Below, piece by piece: positions 1,669-17,353 of a stretch of 64,000 nucleotides of DNA (positions are counted from its first letter, which is position 1; the number at the start of each line of letters is the position of its first letter). The notes beneath the pieces were generated by a model. It saw only the letters and a program-made list of their open reading frames with translations. It ran no database searches and was not told where the DNA came from. A program made the translations under genes and the position numbers. Source of the stretch: Micromonospora foliorum (GTDB taxonomy: Bacteria > Actinomycetota > Actinomycetes > Mycobacteriales > Micromonosporaceae); the NCBI RefSeq assembly GCF_022229015.1, contig NZ_JAKKFF010000446.1, forward strand, positions 1 to 64,000, read 5' to 3'.

Positions 1669-1934
1669 GCCCGCCCCGGCCTTGGTCGGGTGTCGCCCCT
1701 GATCTTGGGCACTTGAACCTTTGGATCGTGACGGTCATCGGACACGATCTGAATTCCCACGGCACAACCACTGCCGCAGCAATCATCTGCGTATCAGTTG
1801 CAGTTCTGCGCGGACGGCGATCATGGATTCCTGGTCGACGTCGACCCACCGACATGAACCCCCATGTTTGCGGTAGGCGGGATCGCGACGGGTGGGACGC
1901 CCCGTGTCCCGAGGACACGCCCAACATCGTTTCG
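1669..1934. other. intergenic, no gene seen
   Basis: This segment lies between the HxlR gene and the 3' end of the membrane-protein gene. No ORF with family resemblance, tRNA or clear terminator was recognised. Confidence 0.5.
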
Positions 1935-3782
1935 TTAGGGGTTCTTGGTGTTGGTGTCGATGGTGTAAACCACGTCTGGCCCGACGTCATGGCGGGTGAT
2001 GCCGGGTACGTCGGGGATGTCAAGCAGTGGTTCGTACGGGGTACCTTGTACCCGGTCGCGCAGCAGGACGACGCTGCGGATGCCGAGCTGGTGCAACCGA
2101 TCCAAGGCCGGCTCGCTGGGGAAGGTCGCCATAACGTCGCGGATCGACTGACGGTTGGGTGTGGTGTAGCTGGCCGCACCGTTGACCATGGTGGGAAAAC
2201 CGTCGGTCGACCAAAGCAGGACGTGGAGGTCGATACCGTCGTTGGATGGCAATACCATTATGGGAGCGTGCGCGGAGGCTAGCGCCATCGCGGCCGGTTC
2301 GGCTGGGGTTTGGGGGTGGTCCAGGTCAGGCAGGCCCTCAGCTAGCACGAGGACCAGCAACGGAACGGTCAGCAGACGTGCCGCTCCCACCGACCATTTC
2401 GGCTTGGCGCCCCTGCGAGCCACCTCGGCCAGGTGGGTAACCAGGCCAGCCGCGAGGATGGCCAGGCAGAGAGTGGGCCACAAGATCAACCGGCCTGGTG
2501 TACGGGATCCATCGAACCCGGGCACGTAAAGATAGAGCAGGCGGTAGATCGGCCCGTTCGTGCCCAGCGCGAACAACACTCCGACGACCGCCCCAAACAG
2601 CAGCAGAAGCCGTTGCACCGGTGACCAGCGCGATAGGAACAGGCCGGCGAAGGCCAGTAGATACAGTGCATACCCGCATAGCAGCACTTTCTCAGTCGGT
2701 ACGTCACCAAGAGCGGTGCGGGCGTCGCTGTGCAGGGTGCCCCAGGGCAGCGAGGACTGCGGCGCCACGAGAAGCCCGCGCAGTGTCGGGGAGAAGAACG
2801 CGACGTAGTCCCAGTCCCGGGTGACATCTGGGTTGAGCTCGCGCACGTGTTTGTACGCGTACGCGAAGTATCCGGTCACCGCGGTGAAGACCAGCCCGCC
2901 GATCAGATCACCGACGATCAGCCGGAGGCTAAGGCGTGGGCGGTGGATCAGCCAGGCTGCCAGTGTGATCAGGCAGAGGGCGGCGAGGACGTACACGAAT
3001 CCCAGCCCCACGCCGAAGCCTAGGCTGACCTGCCAGGCCGCAACCAGCCAGCCAGCGAACGCCCAGCCCGGCCGGACTCGTTCGGCAAGGTAGCCGCGGG
3101 TGAACGAGAGTCCGTGGCCGCGCGCCAGCATCGCCAGGGCCAGAGTGATACCACCGGTGGAGAGAATATTCAAATGGCCGTCGTGGCCGTAGCGCCAGGG
3201 CGCGTAGGCGAGGGCGGCCCCGGCTACCGCGGCGGCGACCTTATTCGCGCCAAGCTGGCGCAGGAGCGCGTAGCCGCCGAGGAAGGCGAGCGCGAAAGCC
3301 AGCACGAACAGGATGTTGTAGCGCAGCACGGCGCCGACTACACCGTTGCCTATCAGCCCTGCCGGGGCATAGCCGAGCAGGCTGTCGTTCAGGGCTAGGC
3401 CGTACGTGTCGGGATAGAAAGCGTTGGTATCCCACAGGCCACGCAGACCGTGGGTGAGAGCGTGGCCACCCCATCCCACCAGCCATGCTTGGGCCGTCGG
3501 GTCACCCACGTCACCGACGATGGTGTGGGCCGGGTCGGCGATCGGCACAGTCTTGGCGCCGGCAGTCACCACGCGAACCGCGTACGGCGGAATCAGCCAG
3601 ATCATCGCGACAGCGAGGAGCACTGAACCGAGGCCCGCGATGCTCAGTTCCCGCCGATGGGCCCCACGTGTCAGCCAATCCCTCGTGCCTGAACTGGCAC
3701 GCGCGAGTCGGCCATTTTTTCCAAGCTCGCTGAGAGCGACGGCTGATGTGGGGCCTCCTGCCGGTGGCTCTACCTGCGTCAT
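1935..3782 (-). CDS. polytopic membrane protein, GT-C glycosyltransferase-like
   Basis: The 615-residue product is read from the ATG at 3782 (MTQVEPPAGG), preceded by GAGGG about 8 nt upstream. It has a short cytoplasmic N-terminus, a first membrane segment, then an extracellular loop rich in acidic residues (GDVGDPTAQAWLVGWGGHALTHG). About 10-12 further hydrophobic helices follow (for example YNILFVLAFALAFLGGYALL and LIVGDLIGGLVFTAVTGYFAYAY), and the C-terminus is soluble. An acidic first loop followed by many helices is the arrangement of lipid-linked sugar GT-C enzymes and YfhO-like proteins. The specific substrate is unknown. There is no operon partner; flanking DNA is decayed. Confidence 0.65.
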   Translation of the reverse strand: MTQVEPPAGGPTSAVALSELGKNGRLARASSGTRDWLTRGAHRRELSIAGLGSVLLAVAMIWLIPPYAVRVVTAGAKTVPIADPAHTIVGDVGDPTAQAWLVGWGGHALTHGLRGLWDTNAFYPDTYGLALNDSLLGYAPAGLIGNGVVGAVLRYNILFVLAFALAFLGGYALLRQLGANKVAAAVAGAALAYAPWRYGHDGHLNILSTGGITLALAMLARGHGLSFTRGYLAERVRPGWAFAGWLVAAWQVSLGFGVGLGFVYVLAALCLITLAAWLIHRPRLSLRLIVGDLIGGLVFTAVTGYFAYAYKHVRELNPDVTRDWDYVAFFSPTLRGLLVAPQSSLPWGTLHSDARTALGDVPTEKVLLCGYALYLLAFAGLFLSRWSPVQRLLLLFGAVVGVLFALGTNGPIYRLLYLYVPGFDGSRTPGRLILWPTLCLAILAAGLVTHLAEVARRGAKPKWSVGAARLLTVPLLVLVLAEGLPDLDHPQTPAEPAAMALASAHAPIMVLPSNDGIDLHVLLWSTDGFPTMVNGAASYTTPNRQSIRDVMATFPSEPALDRLHQLGIRSVVLLRDRVQGTPYEPLLDIPDVPGITRHDVGPDVVYTIDTNTKNP

Positions 3783-3925
3783 CACATTGACCCTCACTGT
3801 TGAACCGCCGCAGTAAATCATGAGCAGGGCGGCGCATAGAGTCAAGACCTCGATCAATGTCCTTCCGGTAGCCGGGCCTTAACGCTGTTTGTCAAAGGCG
3901 CCTTGTCACGCAGGAGTCGCGATCG

Positions 3926-4030
3926 GTGCAGCGGCGAAAGTTGCCGCTGTCGGAACAGGACACGCCAGGGTTGCTGCAGGCCCTCGCCCGGGTTCCGGAC
4001 CCACGGGACAGTGGGCCGACCGGGGCCCAG
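3926..4030 (+). pseudogene. transposase N-terminal scrap (ISAs1/DDE-like)
   Basis: The translated stretch around 3956-4000, GLLQALARVPDPRD, matches the N-terminal motif of ISAs1-type DDE transposases (LLxALAxVPDPRxxRGxRHxL). The match fades after a few residues and runs into unrelated sequence, so only a fragment remains. It abuts the broken ATP-grasp gene, which may have been truncated by this element. Confidence 0.35.
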
Positions 4031-4549: not shown

Positions 4550-4772
4550 CCGGGCATCGTGCCGGAGTGACGACCTCGGGCTCTACCTGATATTCCGATC
4601 GGGCAGGTCATCCTGATGATGTCCCCCGGGTAACCGCCCACCCGTCCGCTCAGCGGTCGGCGTTGTTGCGGCAGCGGCCGCAAGAAAGTTCGTAGTCGGG
4701 CCGGGGTTGCCGTGGAGAAGCCGAAGACGTCTTCGTCGCTCATCATGGGGTAACGGACGCGTTGCGGTCGGG

Positions 4773-5927
4773 TTAAGCATCTACAGTAGACATCGACAAG
4801 CGTCGCCACTGGTCTCGGACAGTCTGTTCGATGCGGACCGCCTCGCTCGTGGCCATCGATCCCAGTCGCGCATCCGCCAGGTCTGCTGCTTGAGGGATAT
4901 GTTCGGCCCGCGGTGGCAGTAGAGACCAGAGGGGTCTTATCCGGGCCCCCCGCCGGACCTTCGCCTCGTAGGAGCTCACTCCGAGGTTCAACCGTGGTAT
5001 CCCGCGCTGATAACAGAAGTCAAGTGGGGCATGTACGGCTAGCCTCGCGTACTCGCCGACACCGGGCAGGGCGTCGTAGTCGAAGCCGACGCCGCGGAAG
5101 CTCAGTTCTCCCGCAGTCTTGTAGAACAGGGAGAAGCCGACTAGCCGATCGGCCAAGAAGCAGCCGAACACGACGGCGTCCTCGTCCAGCATGGCTGCTT
5201 GGCGAGCGAGAGAGGCAGCATAGACTTCGGTCGGGCTGTGGTCGCCGTACTTTCGCTGGACGTTGGCCAGCAACGGTGCCAGGTCTCGCCAGCTCTCAGA
5301 GAGGCGCAACTCCTTGATTCGTAAAGGGCTCCTGTCGAATCGCGCAGCTTCACGGCGGTAGTGGGACCGTCTGTTGGCCGTCGGTAGGGCTTCCACGTGA
5401 TCCTCAACGCTCGAGCCTGCTAGGTCAATGACACAGTCTGCCCGAGCGAGCCGCGTGTGGGGCTGGGGAATGCCCCCGTCAAGTAGACTCGCGCTGAGCA
5501 CTGATTCAGCATCCTCGAACAAAAGGAATGGCCACCAGCAACCACATTCCGGGTTCGCTGCCTCTATGGCGCGAAGCAGCTTGGCCAACGCAGATTCTAC
5601 GACATGGGCTGGGAAACGCTGGTTCCGGATAAAGCCCGACAGGTAGCCCTGCCGACCGCCGAGGATCGCGGGTGCTGAGTAGTGGGATGTGTCGACGTCA
5701 AACAGTGCGCTGAAGTTGTACGCCTTGCTCATCAGGGACAGCGGATTATGCGATGAAACGCCCGCAACCAGGGAGCCGTCCGCATACGCACCCCAGTAAG
5801 TGCCTCGCCCGCGGGCATCCGAGTCAACATAAGCCAACCAGCGAGGGTTCAGATAGAAGGTCTTGTCGATAGCGAGCTCGCCCCATCCGGATAGATCTGC
5901 CGCGCGCTCGGCTTGCATGATGTTCAT
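4773..5927 (-). CDS. GNAT / BioF2-like acyltransferase
   Basis: The 384-residue product has the FemAB/BioF2-type double-GNAT organisation: an N-terminal sensor half (FYLNPRWLAYVDSDARGRGTYWGAYADGSLVAGV) and a C-terminal catalytic half with FGCFLADRLVGFSLFYKTAGELSFRGVGFDYD and the late LNLGVSSYEAKVRRGA stretch seen in acetyltransferase-6 members. Such enzymes transfer acyl or aminoacyl groups to amines of peptides or sugars. The start is at 5927, with an alternative ATG at 5918. It begins 3 nt after the ATP-grasp stop codon, so the two are almost certainly co-transcribed. Its likely role is N-acylation or aminoacyl extension of the pentapeptide product (inference). N-acetylation is known for biarylitides. 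Confidence 0.78.
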   Translation of the reverse strand: MNIMQAERAADLSGWGELAIDKTFYLNPRWLAYVDSDARGRGTYWGAYADGSLVAGVSSHNPLSLMSKAYNFSALFDVDTSHYSAPAILGGRQGYLSGFIRNQRFPAHVVESALAKLLRAIEAANPECGCWWPFLLFEDAESVLSASLLDGGIPQPHTRLARADCVIDLAGSSVEDHVEALPTANRRSHYRREAARFDRSPLRIKELRLSESWRDLAPLLANVQRKYGDHSPTEVYAASLARQAAMLDEDAVVFGCFLADRLVGFSLFYKTAGELSFRGVGFDYDALPGVGEYARLAVHAPLDFCYQRGIPRLNLGVSSYEAKVRRGARIRPLWSLLPPRAEHIPQAADLADARLGSMATSEAVRIEQTVRDQWRRLSMSTVDA

Positions 5928-5930
5928 CCC

Positions 5931-7163
5931 TCAGCTGCCTTGGGGTTCGACGATGACCGAGACGCCCTTCAGCAACTCGTCGGCTCGTTGGTCGGCTGAC
6001 GTCTCGTCCTCGGCGGTGACGATGAAGTAGGCGACGCGGGCGCTGTTGCTGTCCGGACTGGCCACCGATGCGCCGATTTCGGTGGTCACCTCGGAGAAGG
6101 GCACGTTGTCTCCGGTGCAGGGCATGCCCTGCACGGCGACGAGCCGGCCGCCGCGCGGCGCTAGGGGACGCCTGATGGCCGCGACGGCACGCCGAGTTGG
6201 GGCAAGTTCAACCGGTTGCCCGAGGGCGACCGCCAAGGCCGCTCCGGCCATGTCGATTCCAAGGGCGAGGCTGGTCAGCAACGTGATTCGGCCACCGCCG
6301 ATCCGTGGAGCGATCTCCAGCACCACCCATGCACCATCCGGCTTCCGCTTCACCTCGCAATGTGACCAGCTATTGCGTATACCCGTTGCTGCTGCTGCCA
6401 TCGTCACCTGCTGCAGAACCAGCCGCGTGGCGATCGGATCAAGGTTCGACGGGAGAGTGTGACCCGTTTCGACACGGTAGGCGCCAAAGGTCGTCTGCTT
6501 CTTGGTGATGCACACGTGCTCGGTCTGGCCATCCTGCGTCAGCGATTCGACGCTGAACTCCTCCCCGTCGATGTATTCCTGCACCACCACACGGGGGTCG
6601 AGGTGGATCCCATACGGTCCACGTTGCAGACGTACACGTTGGAACGCCGCGGTCAGCTCGTCCAGCCGTTCCACCACGCTGACCCCCGTTGAGCCGGCGT
6701 TCTCGGCAGGCTTCACGACAAGCGGAAATGAGAAGGTCTGGCGACGGAGGTGATCATGAACCTCTTCTTCGTCGGTCACCGCAATCGTCGATGGCACAGA
6801 AACTCCGGCTTCACGCAGCCGCTCGACCATTGTGATCTTGTTTCGAGCTGCCATGGCGAGCGTGGCGTCATTTCCGGCAAGACCCAAAGTCGCACAGGCG
6901 AGTGCTGCCACCGGGGTGAGGAACTCGTTCACGGTCGCGATCGCCTCTACCCTCCGGGAACGCGCAAACGCGACGATGTCTGAGACTGCCGCGTCGTAGG
7001 AGGAAAAGTCCACGACGACGGTGCCAGTGACCCCCCTCGGCGTTGTCGCAGACGTTTGACCGCGCGGTGTAGCCGCGTATACCTCATGCCCCATGGCGAT
7101 GGCCGCCTTGAGTAGGTCCTCACGGTCAGGGCCGGACACATCTAGGAGCAGAACCCGATTCAA
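5931..7163 (-). CDS. ATP-grasp peptide/amino-acid ligase
   Basis: The 410-residue product is an ATP-grasp carboxylate-amine ligase. The N-terminal Rossmann-like part (MNRVLLLDVSGPDREDLLKAA) and central part (NKITMVERLREAGVSVPSTI) precede the ATP-binding segment FPLVVKPAENAGSTGVSVV. EYIDGEEFSVESL and the Mg-binding VVLEIAPRIGGGRI follow; the usual E-x-N is E-x-A here, as in several L-amino-acid ligases. The C-terminal domain carries PRGGRLVAVQGMP, typical of the BacD/L-amino-acid-ligase branch. It would activate a carboxylate as acyl phosphate and couple an amine. It lies between the MFS and GNAT genes. ATP-grasp extension of ribosomal peptides has a precedent in pheganomycin. Confidence 0.85.
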   Translation of the reverse strand: MNRVLLLDVSGPDREDLLKAAIAMGHEVYAATPRGQTSATTPRGVTGTVVVDFSSYDAAVSDIVAFARSRRVEAIATVNEFLTPVAALACATLGLAGNDATLAMAARNKITMVERLREAGVSVPSTIAVTDEEEVHDHLRRQTFSFPLVVKPAENAGSTGVSVVERLDELTAAFQRVRLQRGPYGIHLDPRVVVQEYIDGEEFSVESLTQDGQTEHVCITKKQTTFGAYRVETGHTLPSNLDPIATRLVLQQVTMAAAATGIRNSWSHCEVKRKPDGAWVVLEIAPRIGGGRITLLTSLALGIDMAGAALAVALGQPVELAPTRRAVAAIRRPLAPRGGRLVAVQGMPCTGDNVPFSEVTTEIGASVASPDSNSARVAYFIVTAEDETSADQRADELLKGVSVIVEPQGS

Positions 7164-7210
7164 TGCGTGCCCCTCATCGTCGTCGTCGCAGCGCCAGCAC
7201 GACTGGTGCG

Positions 7211-8467
7211 CTAGCCGTGCCGAAGGTTGTAAACGGAGCGGGAAAGCAGCGGAAGAAGCGCCGCCGCGAGAAACAGGATGCCACCGACCAGGGCGACGCG
7301 CTCATTGCCGAATATGGCGCCGGCAGGGGCAGCGCACATCATCCCAATAGGAACTGTGACGTAGGAAAACAAGTCGTCGTAGGAAGCGACCCTGGACAGG
7401 GCGTTGTTCGGAACGTGCTCTTGTAGCGAAGTTTCCCATGCGGGACCAAACATGCCCGAGCCGATTCCAGCCATGAACGCCGCGATGAAGAGCAATAACG
7501 CGTTGGCACCGACCCCGAGCGCGATGAGGGGGAGGCACCCCAGCGCGAAGAACAGTTGGCCGGTGCCGAGTAAACGTCTCACCGTCAATCGGTACATCAC
7601 AAGTCCCATGACCAGCAGGCCTACTGCACGCGCGCTGAGGACCCCACCCCACGAGGCAGCCCCGATGGTGGTGATAGCGATAGCCGGGCCAAGAACAACC
7701 CAGATCCCGGTCTTGAGGAGATTGGTAACCGCCAGGGAGGCAACGACGGACCAGACCCAGGGGATACTGCGGAACTCGCTCCACCCTTCGCGTACGTCCG
7801 ACAGGACGCTCCGGGAACTGCGGGTGATCTCTTCGCTTAGGCGGATGCGGGAGATGAAGAACGCGGCCAGTAGGTAACTGGCCGAGTCGAGCGCAATCGC
7901 CCAACCGCCGCCGACCGTGGCGACCGTGATTCCCGCCGCAGTAGGACCTAAGATCGTTATTGCGTTCTTGGACGAGGCGACCAGGGAATTCGCCCGTCGC
8001 ATCTGTGCCTTGGCGACCAGTTGGGGAATGATCCCCCGCATGGCGGGCTGAGTGAACGCGGTCAGGGAGCCGTTGAGAAATTCAAGAGCGATGATGAGCA
8101 TGAGGCTGTATCTGCCCGACAGCAGCAGGAAAGCGACGACGCCTTGAGTGGACGCAGCTCCGAGGTTCGACAGCTTAAGGACCGTGCTGCGTGGGAATCT
8201 GTCGGCCACAGCACCGCCGACGAGGAGGAATGCCACTAGCGGAATGCTCCGTGCGGCTAATACCCAGCCGAGGTCATACACGCTGCTCGAATGCTCGAGC
8301 ACGGAGAATGCCAAGGCTACCGGGGCCATCGCGGTGCCGAGGAGGGACACGGACGTGCCGGTGAGATACCATCTAAAGCCGGAGGTCCACAGTGTGGTTT
8401 CGGCATTACCAATATCCGCCTCCGCGGGCGCGTCCATTCCATGCTGCTGCAACTCTTTATCCTTCAT
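7211..8467 (-). CDS. MFS transporter, drug-exporter type
   Basis: The 418-residue product has about 12 hydrophobic segments and the layout of DHA/enterobactin-exporter-like MFS proteins. The N-terminal WTSGFRWYLTGTSVSLLGTAMAPVALAFSVLE is followed by the motif-A loop GGAVADRFPRSTVLKLSN. The second half repeats a related layout. The start codon at 8467 lies 99 nt after the stop of the MSYDH pentapeptide gene, with a hairpin between them. The gene ends 47 nt before the ATP-grasp gene. It is probably the exporter of the pentapeptide-derived product, giving self-resistance. Confidence 0.88.
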   Translation of the reverse strand: MKDKELQQHGMDAPAEADIGNAETTLWTSGFRWYLTGTSVSLLGTAMAPVALAFSVLEHSSSVYDLGWVLAARSIPLVAFLLVGGAVADRFPRSTVLKLSNLGAASTQGVVAFLLLSGRYSLMLIIALEFLNGSLTAFTQPAMRGIIPQLVAKAQMRRANSLVASSKNAITILGPTAAGITVATVGGGWAIALDSASYLLAAFFISRIRLSEEITRSSRSVLSDVREGWSEFRSIPWVWSVVASLAVTNLLKTGIWVVLGPAIAITTIGAASWGGVLSARAVGLLVMGLVMYRLTVRRLLGTGQLFFALGCLPLIALGVGANALLLFIAAFMAGIGSGMFGPAWETSLQEHVPNNALSRVASYDDLFSYVTVPIGMMCAAPAGAIFGNERVALVGGILFLAAALLPLLSRSVYNLRHG

Positions 8468-8523
8468 GAGGAACAGGAAGTCCGAGGGTCTGGGGTAGTG
8501 GACCTCGACGGGTCAGTGAACCT

Positions 8524-8557
8524 CTGTCGGGCCCGGCGTGGTCGCCGAGCCCGACAG
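8524..8557 (-). terminator. strong hairpin between pentapeptide gene and MFS gene (attenuator-like)
   Basis: The 9-nt arm at 8524-8532 pairs with 8549-8557, a C/A mismatch follows, and a 5-bp inner stem (8534-8538 with 8543-8547) closes a 4-nt loop. On the minus strand it begins 9 nt after the MSYDH stop codon. No U-tract follows, so partial termination or 3'-end stabilisation is more likely than full termination. Such stems often give an excess of precursor transcript in RiPP operons. Confidence 0.7.
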
Positions 8558-8566
8558 GCCTCAGGC

Positions 8567-8584
8567 TCAGTGGTCGTAGCTCAT
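8567..8584 (-). CDS. 18-bp gene for pentapeptide MSYDH (candidate minimal RiPP precursor)
   Basis: On the minus strand the sequence reads ATGAGCTACGACCACTGA, five codons and a stop: Met-Ser-Tyr-Asp-His. An AAAGGAGGTG Shine-Dalgarno lies 7 nt upstream, the strongest I saw in the window. A stable hairpin follows, then MFS, ATP-grasp and GNAT genes on the same strand; a P450 gene is divergent. Biarylitide precursors (bytA, also 18 bp) are pentapeptides of type MRYYH, in which a P450 (BytO) joins Tyr3 to His5 and the tripeptide is N-acetylated. Tyr3 and His5 are kept here, while position 2 is Ser instead of Arg and position 4 is Asp. The alternative is a leader peptide that only tunes the downstream operon. 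Confidence 0.72.
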   Translation of the reverse strand: MSYDH

Positions 8585-8591
8585 GATTACA

Positions 8592-8599
8592 CCTCCTTT
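8592..8599 (-). promoter_or_regulatory. near-perfect ribosome-binding site of the MSYDH gene
   Basis: AAAGGAGG on the minus strand is complementary to the 16S rRNA 3' end and sits 7 nt before the ATG at 8584. This site is the main argument that a five-codon ORF is deliberately translated. Confidence 0.8.
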
Positions 8600-8808
8600 G
8601 TGAGGGAAATTTATCCCCGGGCGCCCTGAGGCGTCTCCGGTGGCATGGGCGTCCGTAAGGCGCGATATTGTTCAACGCGGCCTGTGGCCGTTTGAGAACC
8701 GACGGAGCTGCTGCCCGATTGCTCAGCATCGTGGCTGCTGTCGACACGCTGATAGCCGGCTCACGCGCTACGCCATGGTGACGACGAAAAAGCGAGGAGT
8801 CTCGGGAT

Positions 8809-8845
8809 GCCCATTTACTTCAAACACTAGTTTGAAAAAATGGGC
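8809..8845. repeat. nested inverted repeat, possible operator
   Basis: An outer arm of 8 nt (8809-8816) pairs with 8838-8845. An inner TTCAAAC (8819-8825) pairs with GTTTGAA (8830-8836) around a 4-nt centre. It lies between the pentapeptide operon and the P450 gene. No U-tract follows on either strand, so a protein-binding operator or RNA structure is more likely than a terminator. Confidence 0.5.
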
Positions 8846-9426
8846 GAACCGTAGTTGCTGCCGACTAGCACGACTCTGTCTACCGACAACTGGGCACGGA
8901 AGTAGACATCGATCTAGAGCGCGGCGTGTTTCGCCACTGAGTGCGTGCGGCCTATGGCAGGCGCGCGCAGGCAACGCGGGCTTCTATAGAATGATCAACC
9001 ATCACGCACTACCCCCGTGGTGTCATGTCGGCCTAGGTGATCGCTTGATCACGTGACGACTGCAGATTTGCATCGTTCCGCGACTAGCGTCAAGAGGCAC
9101 TTTGATGAGAGTGCCTTGGGTGTGACCACGTCATGCATAGCAAAGTCGGCCGACGGCTGAAAGAGATCACCCCTGTTAATCGTGAATCCCTGGCCCCGCC
9201 AACCAGCCTGACGCATGTCGCACAGTAACCCGGACGGTTGCCTGGGGCAACCCCCTGGCCAAGCAAGAGGGGTTTCCGCAGGTGGGCGACCATTACACAA
9301 GGAGCTGCAGGCAGTTCACGGGTAAATTTTCTTCGCCTGCAGCCCACGTCGTTGACAACGATGTCCAGCCGGTCGTAGCGTCAAGTCAGTACCGATCACG
9401 GAGTCGGGCCTAGGACAAGCTGTCAA

Positions 9427-9455
9427 TTGACCAGGCTCGGACGCGTCGTTATGTC
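9427..9455 (+). promoter_or_regulatory. candidate promoter for the P450 gene
   Basis: TTGACC (9427-9432) and TATGTC (9450-9455) are separated by exactly 17 nt. Transcription would begin about 35 nt before the TTG start at 9497. Confidence 0.4.
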
Positions 9456-9496
9456 GCGCACATTGCGCACGGGGAACCCATCAAAGGGGTGGCAAT

Positions 9497-10660
9497 TTGA
9501 CTACAGCCGTGGAATACGACCCTCTGTCTCCAGAAATGCTCGCAAATCCGTACCCTCAGTACGCTCGGTTCCGTAGAACAGCGCCCATCTTCTGGCACGA
9601 GGGAATGAAGTCATGGGTGCTCAGCCGGTATCAAGACTGCCGCGACGTGCTGCGCGACAACGACATGTTCGCGCGAGACCGCCGGCGGGTAGGGGCGGAG
9701 CTGCCGGAGTTCCTGCAGAACATCCAGACGATTGATCCACCGGACCAAGGCCCACTGAAGAGCGTCCTAATGAACGCCCTGCGTTCTCAAGACCTTGACA
9801 CCGCTGGCGCCCAGGCTCGGGAGCAGATCACGGGGATCTTCGCCGACCTCGCGCAGCGTGAACGCTTCGATTGGATCAAGGAGGTCGCCGCTCCGGTCGC
9901 CCTCACGATCACCTCGCACTTGTTTGGAGTGCAGCGCCCCGACCTGCACTGGTACGTCAAGTTGTCCGACTCCATTGCCCGCCGGATGGATATCGGGCTG
10001 CGCCCCGAACGAGCAGCGGTCGGGAACGATGCCCGCACTCAGCTCAACTCGTTGGTCGACCAGTGGTACGCCGCCGAACGACGGCCTGGAGTGTTCGCCA
10101 CCATCCGGGAAACCGCCGGCCAGCTCCAGGTTCCGCCGCACTACGTGCACAACACCGCAGGTGTGATGTTCAACGCGAGCTACGGGACCCTGTTTGCGAC
10201 GGTCAGCAACATTGCTATGACACTGATCGAACGACCTGAAACGCTCGATGCCCTGCGCGGGGCAGACCGCAAACTCCTCGATTCCGCTACTGACGAGCTG
10301 ATCCGCTTCGAGGGGCCGGCCCAGGGAACTAGTCGCGTCGCTACCGAGCGAACGGTCATCCATGGCACGACGATCGAGCGTGGCCAGATCGTGCTGACCC
10401 TGATGGCCTCCGCGAACCGCGACGAGACCGAGTTCACGCGTCCGGATGAGCTGGTGCTGGACCGATCGCCTAACCGGCATCTGTCGTTTGGCTGGGGCGT
10501 TCATGGCTGTCTCGGAGCAGCCTTCGGCAGAGTGGCGGTTCGCGAGCTGATTCTATGCTTGACCGAAGCCCCTCGGCTGCGGCTAGCTGGCACACCGGTG
10601 CGACGGACGACGGCAACGGTCCGAAGCCTCGATTCATTGCCGGTCTCCTTCACCGCCTGA
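9497..10660 (+). CDS. cytochrome P450, proposed pentapeptide-modifying (BytO-like role)
   Basis: The 387-residue product starts at TTG 9497 with AAAGGGG upstream. Cys338 in FGWGVHGCLGA is the heme ligand, and E267-x-x-R270 (ELIR) is the K-helix motif. In the I-helix (ASYGT, about 227-231) the usual acidic residue of the acid-alcohol pair is Gly230 while Thr231 remains. This is atypical for a hydroxylase and fits a radical-coupling enzyme. No redox partner is encoded nearby. It is divergent from the MSYDH operon, whereas bytO normally follows bytA on the same strand. The proposed role is Tyr-His cross-linking or another oxidation of the pentapeptide (inference). A role unrelated to the peptide cannot be excluded. 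Confidence 0.85.
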   Translation: MTTAVEYDPLSPEMLANPYPQYARFRRTAPIFWHEGMKSWVLSRYQDCRDVLRDNDMFARDRRRVGAELPEFLQNIQTIDPPDQGPLKSVLMNALRSQDLDTAGAQAREQITGIFADLAQRERFDWIKEVAAPVALTITSHLFGVQRPDLHWYVKLSDSIARRMDIGLRPERAAVGNDARTQLNSLVDQWYAAERRPGVFATIRETAGQLQVPPHYVHNTAGVMFNASYGTLFATVSNIAMTLIERPETLDALRGADRKLLDSATDELIRFEGPAQGTSRVATERTVIHGTTIERGQIVLTLMASANRDETEFTRPDELVLDRSPNRHLSFGWGVHGCLGAAFGRVAVRELILCLTEAPRLRLAGTPVRRTTATVRSLDSLPVSFTA

Positions 10661-11269
10661 CGCCGTCATCGTCCGGCAGCCTCAGGGGACAACTAGGGCA
10701 GTTGCGAAAGAGAGCAGATCGGTAACCCTAGCCCGGGTAGCGGCCCGTTCCCCTACGTGCTGAACTCAAGCTCCTACTGCCGAACCTGCCGCCAAGACGC
10801 GGCCATGCCTGTCGACTAGTCGCAACCCTGGTCACACGCCCTGTCTGCGGCTCGGGTCGTCCGCCCCCGCCTACCCTTGGTGATGGGCGGACGACCTCAG
10901 CACGATCAATCGGGGGCGCGTCGGCCGTCTGCGCGATTGCGCGGGCACGGCGGACGTAGCTGCTCGCATGCCGGCCCTTATCCCGCGTCGTGCGCCGCGC
11001 GAGTTGAACGAGCCGAATCGTTCCGGCGGAAAGAATGCGCACGCGACGACGCCACTCGGACGCGATCCGTCGCCGGCTCCCCTTCGGCGGCCGGTAGCCA
11101 CAGGACTCCGAACGGGTGCAGCCCTGCCGACGGCACGACACGAAGAAGCCCCGGGCCACCAGCGGAGGCAGCTCGGAGGTTGTGTCGTTGACGGCGAATC
11201 GGGGTCGCAGTACCGCCGACGCGGAGGTGGGAGGCGACGTGCTCTCATGACCGCCTGCAGCTGACGTCG
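10661..11269. other. 600-bp region without a recognisable gene
   Basis: Open frames here are GC-rich shadows with Arg/Pro/Ser-rich translations. I see no family resemblance on either strand. The only clear structure is the 12-bp stem at 10855-10896. Confidence 0.5.
10855..10896. terminator. 12-bp stem-loop
   Basis: GGTCGTCCGCCC (10855-10866) pairs perfectly with 10885-10896 across an 18-nt loop. It is about 200 nt downstream of the P450 gene and could end that transcript, but there is no U-tract. Confidence 0.4.
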
Positions 11270-11470
11270 TTGATCCGGGCAGTAAACGCAATTCTTCTGG
11301 GTGCAGTGATGTGGGGCATCGGCGTTCCGCTCATTTTCTACGCCCTCTCCCAAGGGATGCCGACGCTCGACCTCATGGGTTTGACAACCATGGCCGCGGG
11401 CAGTGGCATCGTCGCGACGTGTCTGCGGCAAGCGGCCTCCCGGCAAGCAGCCAGCGGCCGTCAGCTCACT
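11270..11470 (+). pseudogene. small membrane protein, N-terminal part, probably decayed
   Basis: TTG at 11270 opens a frame with two hydrophobic segments (AVNAILLGAVMWGIGVPLIFYAL and LMGLTTMAAGSGIVATCL). The frame then degenerates into Arg/Ser-rich sequence that overlaps another remnant. No family was recognised. It may be a small two-helix membrane protein whose 3' end has been lost. Confidence 0.3.
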
Positions 11471-11499
11471 GATCTGCGACACGTCTCGCTGCGGCGGTG

Positions 11500-11675
11500 C
11501 AGGCGGTATCCGAGCGGCACGACCCTACTCGGTGGCAGCGGCGGACCCGTTTGCCGCGCGACACGCGATCACCGGAGAAGTGCCACTCGACAGCGTCCGG
11601 CGAGTCGCCGTGCTGACCAACGGAGCAGCACGTTTGGTCGTATCAGGACCTGGGTGACACGGCTTGGGGGTAGCT
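11500..11675 (+). pseudogene. phosphatase-2C-like C-terminal fragment
   Basis: The translated piece ARPYSVAAADPFAARHAITGEV plus VRRVAVLTNGAARLVV resembles the C-terminal region of actinobacterial PP2C-like proteins (pattern AxxxTDGAxRLVDxF). It is followed by a frame slip and stop. No N-terminal catalytic part is nearby. Confidence 0.33.
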
Positions 11676-11705
11676 GGGGCCTGAGCGATCAATCACGATG
11701 AGCGA

Positions 11706-12359
11706 GTGATCGAGCGATTGATCGAGCAACGACCGATGAACATCGTCCGTCGGCGGGTGATGGCAATCGTGCTCACCGGCCTGGTCGTCGTTGCGGTGCC
11801 AGCCGTGCTCGTTGCCTGGCGCAATCCGTGGCACTACGTACACCTCATGCCGTTCGGCAGCTCGTCAGTCGTGGCGGCTGTGCTATTCGCCGCATCGGTG
11901 TTGCTCGGCGTCGCGGCGTGGCTTGTTCTGCGCCCAGCACTCGCGCGGGCGGTGGCTGTGGTCGCAACCGTCTTGGCGTTGATGGCGGCCTGTAGTGGCG
12001 CCGAGTTTTTGGGGCCGTCGCTCTACGGCGTGGAGCCGGACCGGGATACCGAAGTTGTAGCCCTTTCCTCAGGCGGTTCGTTCGAGGTGGTCCTGCTGCA
12101 CTACCCCGAATTTATGATGGGCTTTGATGTCTTACGTATTCGGTCGCGGGCGGGGCTGAGGAGCCGGGAGGCCAACCAGGACGTCGCATGCTTCGCCACG
12201 CCATTCGATGGACTTGGCCCCGAGGGCACCTTCGGTACCGCTCGTTTCCTCAGCGATCACGAGATCGAAGTCCGCACCGAGGCAGGCCAGCCCTGGACGA
12301 CCCGGTTTGACCCGCGCACCCTCCTGGCCGTCTCCACCCTGTCCCACGGCTGCCAGTAG
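11706..12359 (+). CDS. membrane protein of unknown function
   Basis: The 217-residue product has three hydrophobic segments (VMAIVLTGLVVVAVPAVLVAW, SVVAAVLFAASVLLGVAAWLVL, VAVVATVLALMAACSGAEFLG) and then a soluble C-terminal domain of about 115 residues. That domain is beta-rich (SSGGSFEVVLLHYPEFMMGFDVLRIRSR and TARFLSDHEIEVRTEAG) with two Cys. The start may be GTG 11706 or ATG 11736 (MNIVRRRVM). No family was recognised and there is no operon partner. Confidence 0.65.
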   Translation: MIERLIEQRPMNIVRRRVMAIVLTGLVVVAVPAVLVAWRNPWHYVHLMPFGSSSVVAAVLFAASVLLGVAAWLVLRPALARAVAVVATVLALMAACSGAEFLGPSLYGVEPDRDTEVVALSSGGSFEVVLLHYPEFMMGFDVLRIRSRAGLRSREANQDVACFATPFDGLGPEGTFGTARFLSDHEIEVRTEAGQPWTTRFDPRTLLAVSTLSHGCQ

Positions 12360-12768
12360 GCGGCGGTCTAGCCGCAATTGTCACCCACGTCCCGAGACTG
12401 ATCTGTCACCCAGGTCCTGAGACCCGACACCGGCTGCCGGCGAAGTGGTGAGAACTTTCTGTACGTCTTCAAGGCGGCCCTGAACGGGCCGCACGCGCCG
12501 CCGCCTGGGCGCGCGTCCGTCGCTCCGCTGGCGCTCCGACTCCGGCCGCGCAGAACGCCCGGCGGCTGGCGCGGAAGAAAGGGCCGCCGCAGAACGACAG
12601 GCGGTTCATCGGTGTAGAAGTGGGCCGGCACCCGGCCGGGAGCCTACGACGACAGGTGCGCCAACTGCGCCCCCGAAAACGTACCGGTACTGGCGGTGAC
12701 GAGCACGAGCGTGGCCAGGAGCCCGAGCGGCAGTCGGCCGCCCGGGCTCCCGGATCGTGACGCGTTCG
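12360..12768. other. intergenic region with repeat and decayed sequence
   Basis: Apart from the imperfect direct repeat at 12379-12423 nothing gene-like was recognised. It is GC-rich with Arg/Pro-rich shadow frames. Confidence 0.5.
12379..12423. repeat. tandem 20-nt repeat resembling an IS481-type end
   Basis: TGTCACCCACGTCCCGAGAC (12379-12398) and TGTCACCCAGGTCCTGAGAC (12404-12423) match at 18 of 20 positions with a 25-nt period. Repeated TGTCxCCxxxGTCCxGAGAC sequences resemble ends of IS481-like elements in actinomycetes. No transposase is present, so this would be a leftover end. Confidence 0.45.
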
Positions 12769-15700
12769 TCACGGGTACATCTGCGTGACGGTGAAATTCA
12801 TCGATTGAGCGAAGAGGCTGACACCGGTCGGGCTGTTGGGGTGGAAGGACTGCTGCGACGTCGGGCCGTCCGGGGTGTCACCCGGCGACTTGTCCGTCAC
12901 GACCCCGTGGATGCCCGCCGGCGAGCCGCAGACCGACTTGCCCGCGAACTCGTCCATCGGGTCGGAGTAGTACGCGATCGTCCCGCCGCGCGCGGTGTTG
13001 AATTCGCGGACGACGTCCAACTGCTCGTCACGCAGCAGCACGCTCATTTCGGACAGCCACACCCGCTCCTCGTCGCTGAGGACGAGCTTGATGGCGCAGA
13101 GCGGGTCGCCGCCGATCTCGACGAGCTTCGGGTACCCCATGAGCATGATCTTGGCGTTCGGCGCCTTCTTGTGGATCTCCTCCAGCACCTTCGTGTTCGA
13201 CCGGGGAATCGTGTCGGTGATGCGGCGCCTGGTCGAAACGTCCACGGTGTCCGTCTCGCCCGACAGGTTCGCCTTGAAGCAGTCCAGCGGGCCGGCCATG
13301 ATGACGCACTCCTTGACCACCGGGCCGAACTTCGCGTCGTTGCCGCCGATCGAGACCGTGACGAGCGTGGTGTTCTCGTCCAGGTAGCCCTTGTCGAGCT
13401 GGGACACCTCCAGGTACTGGCCCTTGCCCCGTTCGTTGTCGGCGTTGCGGGGCTCGTTGCTGACGGTACGCAGTGGCAGGATGTTCTCCGTCTCCGCGCC
13501 CGAGCAGGCGATCAGGTGGTAGTCCATGTTGACGTCGTGCTGCTGGCTCGTGATGTCCGCCCGCGACCCGATCGGCGTGGACGACCCGGGCAGCACCGCC
13601 TTACGCGACCACGCGTTCTTCGAGCGGTGGCAGCCGTTGCGGAAGGCGTTGTCGCGGTTGTTGTCCGTCTCGCGGTAGTAGTCCGAGCCGTTCACCGGCG
13701 AGGCGCCCTCGCCCGACGAGAACGAGTCGCCGAGCGCCACCACCTGGTGCTGCGGCTTGCCCGGCAGCGGGATGAACGCCGCCGCGTCGAAGGCCACGTT
13801 CTCCTGCGGCCGGCCCAGGGCGAGGTCGCCCTGCCCGCTGGTCGGCACGTCGTCCCGCAGTTGCGCCAACTCCTCCGGTGTCAGGTCCGACACCATGTTG
13901 GTCAGCTCCACCTTCGGGACGTTGTTGAACTCGAACACGCCGAGCGCCACCCAGCGGTTCGCGTACCCGCGCTGCTGGACCATGCGGGTCTTGACCACGC
14001 CGTTCTTCGTCGTGATCTTGTACGCCGCCTGCTGGGTGGTGCCGAGGTGATCGGGGATGTGGACCATGACCCGCATCCAGCCGTTCACCGTCCGGTCCAG
14101 CGTCCACGTCCCACTGACGTAGAGGTTGCTGCCCGGCTGGCGGGTGTGCGTGAACCAGTAGTGCGCGCCGTACCCGCCGCCGACCTGGTGCAGGTCGATC
14201 TTGCCGGGGTACTGGAGCGTGCCGTTCTGCGTCTCGCCGGCGAACCCGTGCGTGAACGTGCCGCTGTTCGTCCGTCGGGTGCAGAGCCAACCGGCCTCGT
14301 CACGGCGTGGGCTGACGACCTCGTTGATCACGTCGTCCACCACGAGCGCGTTCGCCGGCAGGTCGGTGCCGCACTTCGGGTAATAGCTCACCCCGGCGGC
14401 CGGATACGCCCAGCCGGGGTCGTACCTGATGGCGGCGTTACCACAGTCCAGACAGCCCGGTTTCCAGTCCGCGGATCGGTTGTACCAGCACTTGAGGTCC
14501 CGTTCGCCAATGCCGTTCACGTGGTGGCACGGGCCGGCCGGCTCGTCGATCACATCGGGCGCCGTCGGCGGGAGGTTGTTGCCGTAGAAGCAGTCGTTGG
14601 ACTGGTCGCAGAACGTCTGGAGGTGCGGCTTTACCCGCGCGCGCCCGTCGTTCGTGCTCCACCACGCGTACCGGTAGCCGTCGGTGTAGGTGTCCGGCTT
14701 CTCGATCGCGTTGAGCGGGTGTCCGGCCCAACCCATGATCTTCTCCGGGTACGGCCAGTGGCTCGGGTGCCGCGCGTCGTCGTAGGTGAACTCCAGGAAC
14801 GCCTTGCGATTCGCCGGGTACCGCGGGTTGGCCGGGTTGTTCGCCCAGCCGACGCCCCACGGCCCGTCCGTGCTGCCCTCCGGCGCGTAGAACCCGGTGT
14901 TGTAGGCCCACACCGCGAAGAACCAGCTCTCGATGTACTGCGGGTCGCCGCCGTTGACCTTCATGTTGTACGCGTGGACCTGGTTCCACTTGTCCTGCAG
15001 GATCCGCAGCGACTGGGAGATGTTCGCGGCGAAGTCCACGGTGATGGCCAGCTGCTGGTTGTACGGCAGCGGGACCTCGTTCGGCTTCTGGAACCCGGGC
15101 TTGCGCATGCCGTCGGTGACCTGCCCGACGCCGTAGCCGCAGTCGGATTTGTCCCAGCGGATCGTCCAGTCGTCGCTCGTGTCGGCGTCGTAGATGTCCA
15201 GCCCGTAGTAGTTACCGACGAGCGGGTTGCCGAACTCGCCGGGCAGGACGTGCGGCGAGGCCTGCCACAGGTTCGACTCCTGGGCGAGGATGCCGAGCAT
15301 GATCTGCGCGGGCACGTGGCCACCGCCGTTGAGCGGCCGCATCGGGAACCAGTCTGCGACGTTGTAGCCGGGCAGGCCGGACTGGTTGAAGTTGTTGCCC
15401 CGGTTGAGGACCAGCGCGTCCTGCACCGCCATGTCGACGACCCACTCGATCTCCCGGGCGCGGGGCTGGTACACCTGTACCCGCACGTCGTTGCGGGGGA
15501 TCGCGCACCAGGCGGCCGTGTCGACCGGGTCGTGCAGCGGTGTCGCCAGCGTCGTGGCGCCCGGTGCCGACCGGGCCCGCCCCGGCGTCTTCGGGTTCGC
15601 CCGAGCGCCGGCGTCGCCCGACGCCGGCGTGGTTGGCGCGACCGCGAAGTCCACGCTGCGACCGGTCGCCGGCACCTTGGCCTTCATGGTGAGCGACCGT

Positions 15701-16803
15701 TCGCGGCGGCCGTCCGCGGCCTGCGCCGCCCGCGGGTCGGTCGTCCACCGGATGTCGTCCAGCAGCAGGTCACCCTCGCTGGACATCTCCGCCTGCACGG
15801 TCGCGTCGAGCTTTGCGACACCCGTGGGCAGCTTGTGCACCTTGCCGGGGGTACCGGTGATGCCGACCCGACCGCCCGCGCCCTTGACCACGTTCATGTC
15901 GGTCGTGCCGCCCTCGGCCAGGGTGGCTGTCGCGCCGGACTTCACGACGGTCCGCTTGACCCGGCCGGCCTTGCTGTCGGCATCCATGTACACGACGGCG
16001 TCGCCGTTGGCCGCCAGCCGGAACGGTACCCCGGTGGTCCTCGCCACTGCCGACCGGCGCCCCTTGCCGTCGACCCTGACCAGCGCGCCGTTGTCGGCGG
16101 CGATGATCTCGTTCTTGACCGGTAGCGCCGAGGTGAGCTGGCCCGCCACCTGAATCGGCGCGGCCACGGTGCCGGTCGCGGCGTCGAGCTGCGTCAGGCG
16201 GGTCCTGCCCGAGCCGGTGTCGCCGCCGGTGAACGTGCTCAGCACGACGTTCTCACCGGTACCGCAGCCGGGGCTGAAGTATGCGAGGGACGCGTGCGCG
16301 GCCACCTTCCGGACGGACTGGTCCTTGATGTCCACGACCGCCACGAAGGCGCCGCGGTCGAACAGGTCGGGTTTGTTGGTGTAGGCGCGCGGCGCGTACG
16401 TGACGACCAGCCGCCGGCCCGACTCGGTGAGGCAGCCGTTGCCGATCCACTGGTCGGTCTCCAGCCCCGGCTCGCTCAGCGTGGCTGCGGTCGTCCAGCT
16501 GTAGCCAGAGGCCGCCGATGCCACGAGCACGTGCAGGCCGGTCATGTCGCCGGAGAGGGTCCAGGCCCGGTCCTGCGACGTCCGCCAGCCCTGCTTGAGG
16601 GCGGAGTCCCGCTGACCGGGCGGTATCGTCGTGGACGCCGCATACTTCGGGGGCGGGTCCGGCGCCGCGGCGGCCGGCGCGGGGAGCGCCACGAGACCGC
16701 TGGCGACGATCGAGGCGGTGGCGAGCGCGACGGTGGCGCCGCGACGGGCGGTTCCGGGGCTGAGCCCGCGCGGCGGCGCGGGGCGGTGCGGTGATGCTGA
16801 CAC
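12769..16803 (-). CDS. very large secreted protein with transglycosylase-like and SGNH hydrolase domains
   Basis: The 1344-residue product starts at GTG 16803, preceded by GGAGGAA. Residues 1-45 form a signal peptide ending in PAPAAAAPDPP. About 60-360 is a beta-propeller-like region. Around 495-560, ILAQESNLWQAS, GNPLVGNYYG and CGYGVGQVTDGMR look like a lytic-transglycosylase (SLT) fold, with the Glu of AQES as candidate catalytic residue. Near 1017-1340 is a GDSL/SGNH esterase: GDSFSSGEG (Ser about 1022), GGNDAKFGP (Asn about 1151) and SFHPN (His near the C-terminus). Many Cys suggest disulfides. It probably acts on peptidoglycan or cell-surface esters outside the cell. The combination and length are unusual. 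Confidence 0.85.
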   Translation of the reverse strand: MSASPHRPAPPRGLSPGTARRGATVALATASIVASGLVALPAPAAAAPDPPPKYAASTTIPPGQRDSALKQGWRTSQDRAWTLSGDMTGLHVLVASAASGYSWTTAATLSEPGLETDQWIGNGCLTESGRRLVVTYAPRAYTNKPDLFDRGAFVAVVDIKDQSVRKVAAHASLAYFSPGCGTGENVVLSTFTGGDTGSGRTRLTQLDAATGTVAAPIQVAGQLTSALPVKNEIIAADNGALVRVDGKGRRSAVARTTGVPFRLAANGDAVVYMDADSKAGRVKRTVVKSGATATLAEGGTTDMNVVKGAGGRVGITGTPGKVHKLPTGVAKLDATVQAEMSSEGDLLLDDIRWTTDPRAAQAADGRRERSLTMKAKVPATGRSVDFAVAPTTPASGDAGARANPKTPGRARSAPGATTLATPLHDPVDTAAWCAIPRNDVRVQVYQPRAREIEWVVDMAVQDALVLNRGNNFNQSGLPGYNVADWFPMRPLNGGGHVPAQIMLGILAQESNLWQASPHVLPGEFGNPLVGNYYGLDIYDADTSDDWTIRWDKSDCGYGVGQVTDGMRKPGFQKPNEVPLPYNQQLAITVDFAANISQSLRILQDKWNQVHAYNMKVNGGDPQYIESWFFAVWAYNTGFYAPEGSTDGPWGVGWANNPANPRYPANRKAFLEFTYDDARHPSHWPYPEKIMGWAGHPLNAIEKPDTYTDGYRYAWWSTNDGRARVKPHLQTFCDQSNDCFYGNNLPPTAPDVIDEPAGPCHHVNGIGERDLKCWYNRSADWKPGCLDCGNAAIRYDPGWAYPAAGVSYYPKCGTDLPANALVVDDVINEVVSPRRDEAGWLCTRRTNSGTFTHGFAGETQNGTLQYPGKIDLHQVGGGYGAHYWFTHTRQPGSNLYVSGTWTLDRTVNGWMRVMVHIPDHLGTTQQAAYKITTKNGVVKTRMVQQRGYANRWVALGVFEFNNVPKVELTNMVSDLTPEELAQLRDDVPTSGQGDLALGRPQENVAFDAAAFIPLPGKPQHQVVALGDSFSSGEGASPVNGSDYYRETDNNRDNAFRNGCHRSKNAWSRKAVLPGSSTPIGSRADITSQQHDVNMDYHLIACSGAETENILPLRTVSNEPRNADNERGKGQYLEVSQLDKGYLDENTTLVTVSIGGNDAKFGPVVKECVIMAGPLDCFKANLSGETDTVDVSTRRRITDTIPRSNTKVLEEIHKKAPNAKIMLMGYPKLVEIGGDPLCAIKLVLSDEERVWLSEMSVLLRDEQLDVVREFNTARGGTIAYYSDPMDEFAGKSVCGSPAGIHGVVTDKSPGDTPDGPTSQQSFHPNSPTGVSLFAQSMNFTVTQMYP

Positions 16804-16871
16804 TGCGGTTCCTCCAGGATGGCTTGGGGTCGATGCAGTGTCGGAGCCGCGCTCATCGTCGGCGCATCACG

Positions 16872-17279
16872 ATGTCATCGTGGGCGTACCGCGCCGGCGT
16901 CACGGCACGCCCGAGGGGCATCACGAAACGCGCACATGCTTCGACACTCCGCATCACCACAGGCGCCGGCCCGATCGAGGTCACGGGCCGGCGCACCCAG
17001 CGGATCACCGCGATGCTGCTCGTCAGCTACCGCCGGACGGTCGCGACCACCGACGTGACCGACGCGCTCTGGTCGGGCAACCCGCCCACCACGGCGGTCG
17101 ACCAGGTTCGGAACGTGTCCCGGCTCCGGCGGACGCTCTTCCGCGCCCACCTCGACCGGAGCACGGGCGGCCACACGCTCGAGATCGCCGCCGAGTACGT
17201 GGACGTCGCCCGCTTCGAGCGGCTCCTGACGGTCGCGCGCGAGGAGAGCAAACGCCGCAGCATGACACGGTGCGGATGA
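16872..17279 (+). CDS. truncated SARP-like DNA-binding protein
   Basis: The product is about 135 residues from the ATG at 16872. The segment TGRRTQRITAMLLVSYRRTVATTDVTDALWSGNPPTTAVDQVRNVSRLRRTLF is the OmpR/SARP winged-helix domain (trans_reg_C), followed by a wing-like hairpin ending EVDVARFERLL. The BTAD domain that normally follows is absent: the frame ends about 20 residues later. It may be a degraded SARP or a free-standing DNA-binding module. It is divergent from the giant secreted-protein gene, whose start is 69 bp away. Confidence 0.6.
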   Translation: MSSWAYRAGVTARPRGITKRAHASTLRITTGAGPIEVTGRRTQRITAMLLVSYRRTVATTDVTDALWSGNPPTTAVDQVRNVSRLRRTLFRAHLDRSTGGHTLEIAAEYVDVARFERLLTVAREESKRRSMTRCG

Positions 17280-17353
17280 GCTGACGATGCGGCCGCAGTG
17301 CAGGGACGCCGAAGGATCACCCCACGACATGCAGCACGACTGAGGAGGACGGC

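Follow-up and report, generated by a model that had tools for sequence, protein, structure and literature searches.

The 64,000-nucleotide stretch of the Micromonospora foliorum genome analyzed here (contig NZ_JAKKFF010000446.1; hereafter, the window) carries an 18-bp gene for the pentapeptide MSYDH, accompanied by genes for a cytochrome P450, an ATP-grasp ligase, a putative transferase and an exporter. Comparison with related loci indicates that these genes make up a real, conserved and functional-looking cluster, and we consider it likely that this is a biarylitide-type cluster for a ribosomally synthesized and post-translationally modified peptide (RiPP) of the branch with aspartate at precursor position 4 (Asp4), in which cross-linking of the peptide would be followed by ligation. 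The branch is already known in outline, contrary to an earlier reading of this DNA (the original prediction) that took it to be new: a 2026 survey that admitted precursors of 5-8 residues reports 277 biarylitide clusters, 47 of which combine Asp4 with a homolog of the ATP-grasp ligase Pgm1 (PMC13417212), and genes for exactly MSYDH are also present in another genus of Micromonosporaceae and in 11 of the 392 Streptomyces genomes searched. What appears to be new is a cluster without Pgm1 in the window, the L-amino-acid-ligase (LAL) type of ATP-grasp enzyme as the shared partner of Asp4 precursors, and the substrate-side residues of the Asp4 P450s.

Direct reading places the mini-gene, its ribosome-binding site, the hairpin behind it, the exporter and ATP-grasp genes and the divergent P450 gene where the original prediction had put them (Table 1), the minus-strand order being CTCACAAAGGAGGTGTAATC-ATGAGCTACGACCACTGA. 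Thus read, the locus has the 18-bp M-x-Ar-x-Ar precursor gene with a ribosome-binding site that characterizes biarylitide-type clusters. MSYDH is the sole five-codon open reading frame (ORF) of the form M-x-[YWFH]-x-[HYW] in the window, with ATG, GTG and TTG counted as starts. Among 100 random 64-kb sequences with the dinucleotide composition of the window, the frequency of ATG-x-Tyr-x-His-stop was 0.01 per sequence, and AGGAGG preceded none of these ORFs. In the closest named relative, Micromonospora arida LB32, with a P450 98% identical to that of the window, the 94 bases that span the hairpin, the mini-gene and the ribosome-binding site (8509-8602) are without a single change, against 100 changed columns in the adjoining 894 bases of the same intergenic region (8603-9496); at the neighboring change rate, such an unchanged block would have a probability near 1e-5 by our own arithmetic, the block having been picked post hoc. 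This conservation, the rarity in random DNA and the relatives in other genomes rule out a chance ORF. Precursor genes of five codons are called the smallest known genes and are overlooked by gene callers (PMC13417212); MSYDH does not appear in the main text of that survey but may stand in its supplementary Table S1, and a literature search for the MSYDH string gave only an unrelated match.

Nearby, 913 bp from the mini-gene, is a P450 of the BytO/P450Blt/RufO group. In a PDB search, its ten best sequences, with E-values from 9e-65 to 8e-80, include RufO (8spp, 9duj) and P450Blt (8u2m; names as given in PMC12186263), and the next match follows at 2e-37. In a tree of 44 rows, the 39 biarylitide-type P450s are split from five other P450s of the window genome with support of 96/97, so that the P450 groups with peptide-modifying enzymes and not away from them, in keeping with the original prediction. 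Within the biarylitide/RufO group, the Asp4 P450s form one clade of 19 rows (support 96/92). One half of this clade comprises the window and loci L047, L045, L048, L050, L051, L097, L098 and L046a, and the other half comprises nine Streptomyces loci that carry Pgm1 together with L046b. The P450s found with MRYAY precursors make up two groups just outside the Asp4 clade, and the remaining group, with RufO, has lower support (74/16). Tandem P450s also occur: L046 (9730-12128, minus strand) combines a single MQYDH mini-gene with two P450s that fall in different halves of the Asp4 clade, and L103, L104 and L105 combine an MRYAY mini-gene with two biarylitide-group P450s from separate tree groups. 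A second P450 gene in the window itself (37045-38154, plus strand) is distant, its product being 27% identical to the one discussed here.

Mini-genes are conserved next to relatives of this P450. Among the 151 genomes of the genus, relatives at E 1e-60 were found in five other genomes at six places (36-37% identity), each adjoining an M-R-Y-x-H or a GTG-started R-Y-L-H mini-gene, and a set of 396 genomes of the phylum added two matches at E 1e-50, with mini-genes MRYLH and MRYIY. The pattern GGAGG-N3-10-ATG-x-Tyr-Asp-His-stop matched in four of the 354 genomes searched from the family (window genome included) and in 12 of 392 Streptomyces genomes, and the reversed pattern, taken as control, in none of either set. 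Of the 15 pattern loci besides the window, 13 have a P450 relative adjoining the mini-gene; its identity is 98% for M. arida and ranges from 43 to 68% elsewhere. The remaining two, L053 and L054, have neither a P450 relative nor a hairpin; they were deemed chance matches and excluded from the ligase comparison below.

Because the pattern search required Tyr-Asp-His, only a search that starts from the P450 is unbiased in this respect. In the 392 Streptomyces genomes, such a search, with position 4 free and Tyr, Trp or His allowed at positions 3 and 5, gave 41 matches in 39 genomes; 39 of the 41 matches have a mini-gene backed by a ribosome-binding site within 2.5 kb of the P450, as the original prediction would have it. 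The two misses are G878, with an MRYLH mini-ORF about 3.8 kb off, and G1013, for which 10 kb of a 16-kb contig was taken. The mini-gene rule was loose (four matching letters in the ribosome-binding site, up to eight residues); of 49 long loci, 47 match within 2.5 kb, two farther matches occur in 593 kb, one of them, in L099, being this MRYLH, and one additional match near a P450, in L104, is spurious. Tyr-Asp-His was found in all 14 loci of this search whose P450 belongs to the Asp4 clade. Precursors seen include MSYDH, MTYDH, MGYDH, MRYAY, MKYWH, MRYLH, MRYVH, MRYIY, MRHAH and MRHVH; the last two, with His3, adjoin biarylitide-group P450s in L120, L121 and L122. A longer precursor, MRYDHCL, is found with a ribosome-binding site in L097 (10587-10564, minus strand) and L098, along with an Asp4-clade P450, Pgm1, a LAL-type ligase and an exporter of the major facilitator superfamily (MFS).

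The original prediction also had a ligase accompany the precursor, and in this respect the Asp4 loci stand apart. We compared 19 of them with 31 loci that have a P450 of the same group and another precursor or none (L060-L067, L099 and L103-L124), detecting neighbor genes by tblastn at 1e-8 in flanks of about 9 kb where the contig permits (the P450 of L123 is near one end). The LAL-type ATP-grasp gene is present in 18 of the 19 Asp4 loci and in none of the 31 others (Fisher P 1e-12), and Pgm1 in 12 and none, respectively (Fisher P 4e-7), both values ignoring kinship; near-copies are found on either side, namely, the window and L047, L097 and L098, and 12 of the 31 others, which are close MKYWH copies. 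The LAL_C2 domain was confirmed with Pfam in the window, L045 (both enzymes), L046, L048 (exactly at the cut-off), L051 and L058, the other ligases being tblastn matches only. These counts suggest that the partner common to Asp4 precursors is the LAL-type ligase, and Pgm1 to a lesser extent.

The genes around this ligase vary. Nine Streptomyces loci (L049, L052, L055, L056, L058, L059, L100, L101 and L102) share an operon of the order MxYDH-P450-Pgm1-Asp hydroxylase-F4-LAL and, opposite to it, an APH-like gene. LAL is accompanied in the window type by MFS and by a gene resembling FemAB/GNAT, in L045 by MFS and a second ATP-grasp gene, and in L048, L050 and L051, where LAL itself is divergent, by F7 and MFS. 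With the FemAB-like gene counted, 16 of the 19 Asp4 loci would encode two amide-forming enzymes, the exceptions being L048, L050 and L057. Relatives of the window MFS protein (49-67% identity) were found in six of 17 other Asp4 loci (L045, L046, L048, L050, L051 and L057), and its identity to those of L097 and L098 is only 25-29%. The F4 protein (383 aa; L055 13253-14404, plus strand, and relatives) occurs in the nine Streptomyces loci and in L051; Pfam gave no match for the L055 protein, and a relative in L097, 27% identical, has a weak arginine deiminase match (24.3 bits, cut-off 22.8), and F4 may be an amidinotransferase. The F7 protein (about 520 aa; L050 5402-7015, plus strand, and relatives) is found in L046, L048, L050 and L051, and the three proteins scanned match no Pfam family.

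The resemblance to the published Pgm1/Asp4 hybrids of pheganomycin and biarylitide clusters (PMC13417212, in which we found no product described for any of them) is considerable: with Asp at position 4, MSYDH is an 18-bp-encoded precursor of their kind, combined here too with a biarylitide-type P450 and a ligase of the ATP-grasp superfamily, and the Streptomyces sister clade has Pgm1, the Asp hydroxylase, F4 and the same LAL type. Nevertheless, it is very unlikely that the window cluster is simply such a hybrid. These are defined by a Pgm1 homolog (PreATP-grasp plus PGM1_C), whereas the ligase in the window matches LAL_C2. Tblastn with three Pgm1 proteins found no relative in the window, where F4, F7 and the Asp hydroxylase likewise have none, and PGM1_C had no match in the window genome, which is not strong proof given the weakness of the model (24 bits for a true case, cut-off 22.5); the assembly is in 586 contigs. 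The window has MFS and FemAB-like genes, the latter in place of Pgm1, and its P450 belongs to the other half of the clade, although Pgm1 does occur within that half, in L051, L097 and L098.

The P450s of the Asp4 clade carry substrate-side residues of their own. In an alignment with RufO, Arg60 of the window P450 (Thr67 in RufO) is Arg in all 19 Asp4 rows and in none of the 20 others; Thr220 separates the Asp4 rows equally cleanly, but as Thr versus mostly Ser. Phe69 of RufO packs against Arg2 of the substrate (PMC12186263), and this position is Phe or Trp in all 20 non-Asp4 rows; the window has Arg62 there, and the residue varies among the Asp4 rows, being Arg, Pro, Val or Leu, with Trp in L046b.

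Several observations weigh against the reading as cross-linking followed by ligation. His5 is surrounded by His235 and Glu239 in RufO and by His234 and Glu238 in P450Blt (PMC12186263). Every one of the 14 RufO/MRYxH/MKYWH rows (12 whose precursor has His5, plus MRYIY and L099) has this pair and none of the 19 Asp4 rows does, and therefore a Tyr-His bond is not to be assumed; in the window P450, Asp169, His235 and Glu239 of RufO correspond to Ala161, Asn226 and Gly230, and Thr231 replaces Val240. The window P450 is only 36-37% identical to the R-Y-x-H-type P450s found in Micromonospora, and the mini-gene faces away from it at a distance greater than in most relatives. The Asp4 clade seems to have arisen once; the ligase counts are phylogenetically clustered and include several near-copies, and L057, with a P450 fragment only (residues 182-385 in two pieces), is the sole Asp4 locus without the ligase. 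Asp4, moreover, would be dispensable for N-terminal capping, and its link with ligases suggests that another site might serve.

The altered surroundings of His5 throughout the Asp4 clade would also suit a P450 that alters Tyr3 or Asp4, by hydroxylation or in another way, without forming a cross-link, the peptide serving as a carrier from which the modified residue is released to the ligases. RufO, a P450 of the same group that also takes a pentapeptide substrate, provides a precedent with its nitrotyrosine (PMC12186263, PMC13417212), and ligases that join amino acids are encoded close by. Nitration of the RufO type is made unlikely by the lack of a nitric oxide synthase match in the window genome (0 of 1) and by the loss of the Asp169-Glu239-His235 network, and the 14 P450-first Asp4 loci all keep both Tyr3 and His5, for which a carrier has no obvious need, although the RufO substrate likewise keeps His5. 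On balance, we find the carrier scheme unlikely and the retention of Tyr3 and His5 for cross-linking plausible.

Under the cross-linking and ligation reading, the mini-gene would be translated to MSYDH, and the P450 would bind the entire pentapeptide, perhaps with Arg60 paired to Asp4, and oxidatively link Tyr3 to His5, as relatives suggest. A protease encoded elsewhere would then cut off Met-Ser, the LAL-type enzyme would add an amino acid to the cross-linked Tyr-Asp-His, likeliest at the new N terminus, the FemAB-like transferase would attach a further acyl or aminoacyl moiety, and export of the product would fall to the MFS protein. LAL enzymes couple a free amino acid to an amine, and biarylitide compounds of Planomonospora are N-acetylated. 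The N terminus is the first guess for ligation because of this chemistry and because myxarylin is N-capped, in the order cross-link, trimming and N-methylation (PMC12951456, PMC8708641). Compared with P450Blt and myxarylin biarylitides, with which it shares the mini-gene, the P450 group and the hairpin found after the mini-gene in most relatives tested, the window cluster differs in Ser2, Asp4, the replaced His and Glu of the I-helix and the added ligase. Alternatively, the ligase might act on the side chain of Asp4 or at the C terminus, with Asp4 as the activated carboxylate and Arg60 co-evolved to read it, a scheme that we consider rather improbable; if true, the product would be a side-chain-amidated cross-linked tripeptide, and Asp4 mini-genes would mark ligase-extended biarylitides with or without Pgm1.

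Table 1 Features of the MSYDH locus in the window
Feature	Coordinates	Strand	Remarks
Block common to Micromonospora arida	4747-11531		94%; same gene order, flanks differ
Putative acyl/aminoacyl transferase, GNAT-fold, FemAB-like, 384 aa	4773-5927	-	Acetyltransf_6 and relatives
ATP-grasp ligase, LAL type, 410 aa	5931-7163	-	ATP-grasp_4 and LAL_C2
MFS exporter, 418 aa	7211-8467	-	MFS_1, 2.3e-24; 97% in M. arida
GC-rich stem-loop, 15 pairs, 4-nt loop	8557-8524	-	Directly 3' of precursor stop; fold and stem score
Precursor gene, 18 bp, ATGAGCTACGACCACTGA (MSYDH*)	8567-8584	-	ATG at 8584, stop ends at 8567; direct reading
Ribosome-binding site AAAGGAGG	8599-8592	-	7-nt spacing to ATG
Cytochrome P450, biarylitide/RufO group, Asp4 clade, 387 aa	9497-10660	+	TTG start; Cys338 in FGWGVHGCLG; Arg60 clade-diagnostic

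The hairpin behind the mini-gene is not a common feature of this DNA. No equally good stem was found in 296 random 60-nt stretches from the first 22 kb of the window, and the fold of 8468-8640 has a z-score of -3.06, matched by none of 200 shuffles. The hairpin is not followed by a U-run and is not listed in a simple terminator scan. A stem score of at least 10 after the mini-gene was obtained in all 18 Asp4 loci tested (L098 not among them), in seven of eight MRYxH/Y-type, four of four MRYAY and one of four MKYWH loci, and after neither of the two chance matches (L053, L054). A predicted structure for one bytA-bytO gap is already included in the supplement of the myxarylin report (PMC8708641); the main text of PMC13417212 mentions none of hairpin, terminator, stem or Shine. 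The hairpin is perhaps an expression-ratio or mRNA-stability element, probably maintaining an excess of precursor mRNA over the MFS-ligase-transferase operon, and could provide an additional signal for finding such genes. A short ORF with a strong hairpin at once behind it and then the MFS gene could also be a regulatory leader peptide or attenuator of the MFS operon. This is extremely unlikely, given that the mini-ORF precedes P450-Pgm1 operons in nine Streptomyces loci that lack any relative of the window-type MFS gene, lies behind the P450 in L045, L048 and L050, and thus accompanies the P450 rather than the MFS gene; furthermore, the precursor type tracks the P450 tree, and the hairpin is also found behind MRYLH- and MRYAY-type mini-genes.

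The window ligase scores 78.9 bits with ATP-grasp_4 (cut-off 27) and 47.2 bits with LAL_C2 (cut-off 29.4). The amino-acid-joining enzymes BL00235 and BacD are among its PDB relatives; together with DdaF, they share both domains and rank among its best PDB and NCBIfam relatives, although it falls far under the NCBIfam cut-offs of BacD and DdaF, and its acceptor would differ, being probably the cross-linked tripeptide. The adjacent gene, called GNAT in the original prediction, is located as stated there, but the assignment is less secure: the match to Acetyltransf_6 is weak (23.6 bits, cut-off 22), and FemAB_like matches eight of 11 aligned proteins (the window protein, itself without a match, and 10 relatives), so an aminoacyl transferase appears as likely as an N-acetyltransferase. 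A single-sequence structure prediction of this protein gave no usable model (predicted local distance difference test, pLDDT, 34), and a PDB search with a profile built from the 11 proteins yielded no chain at E 0.01. Homology to the F4 protein of the Pgm1 clusters was tested and not found.

The block shared with M. arida stands in an altered context. On the M. arida contig that carries the block, a portion of the left flank (1900-4009, 95%) is found about 10.5 kb away on the opposite side, a displacement that suggests rearrangement or transfer. Matches to the right flank (11600-17300) were all short. The G+C content is 60-65% at 5-11 kb, 64-67% to the left and 67-74% at 12-24 kb, so that the block differs in composition mainly from the right-hand side.

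If the association of Asp4 with a ligase holds as a rule, the precursor sequence alone would predict extension of the peptide by a dedicated ligase, and a further joining enzyme, be it Pgm1, a second ATP-grasp protein or a FemAB-like transferase, would be swapped around a fixed P450-ligase pair. The Asp4 clusters would then offer a compact, testable system for the production of cross-linked peptides with non-ribosomal additions.

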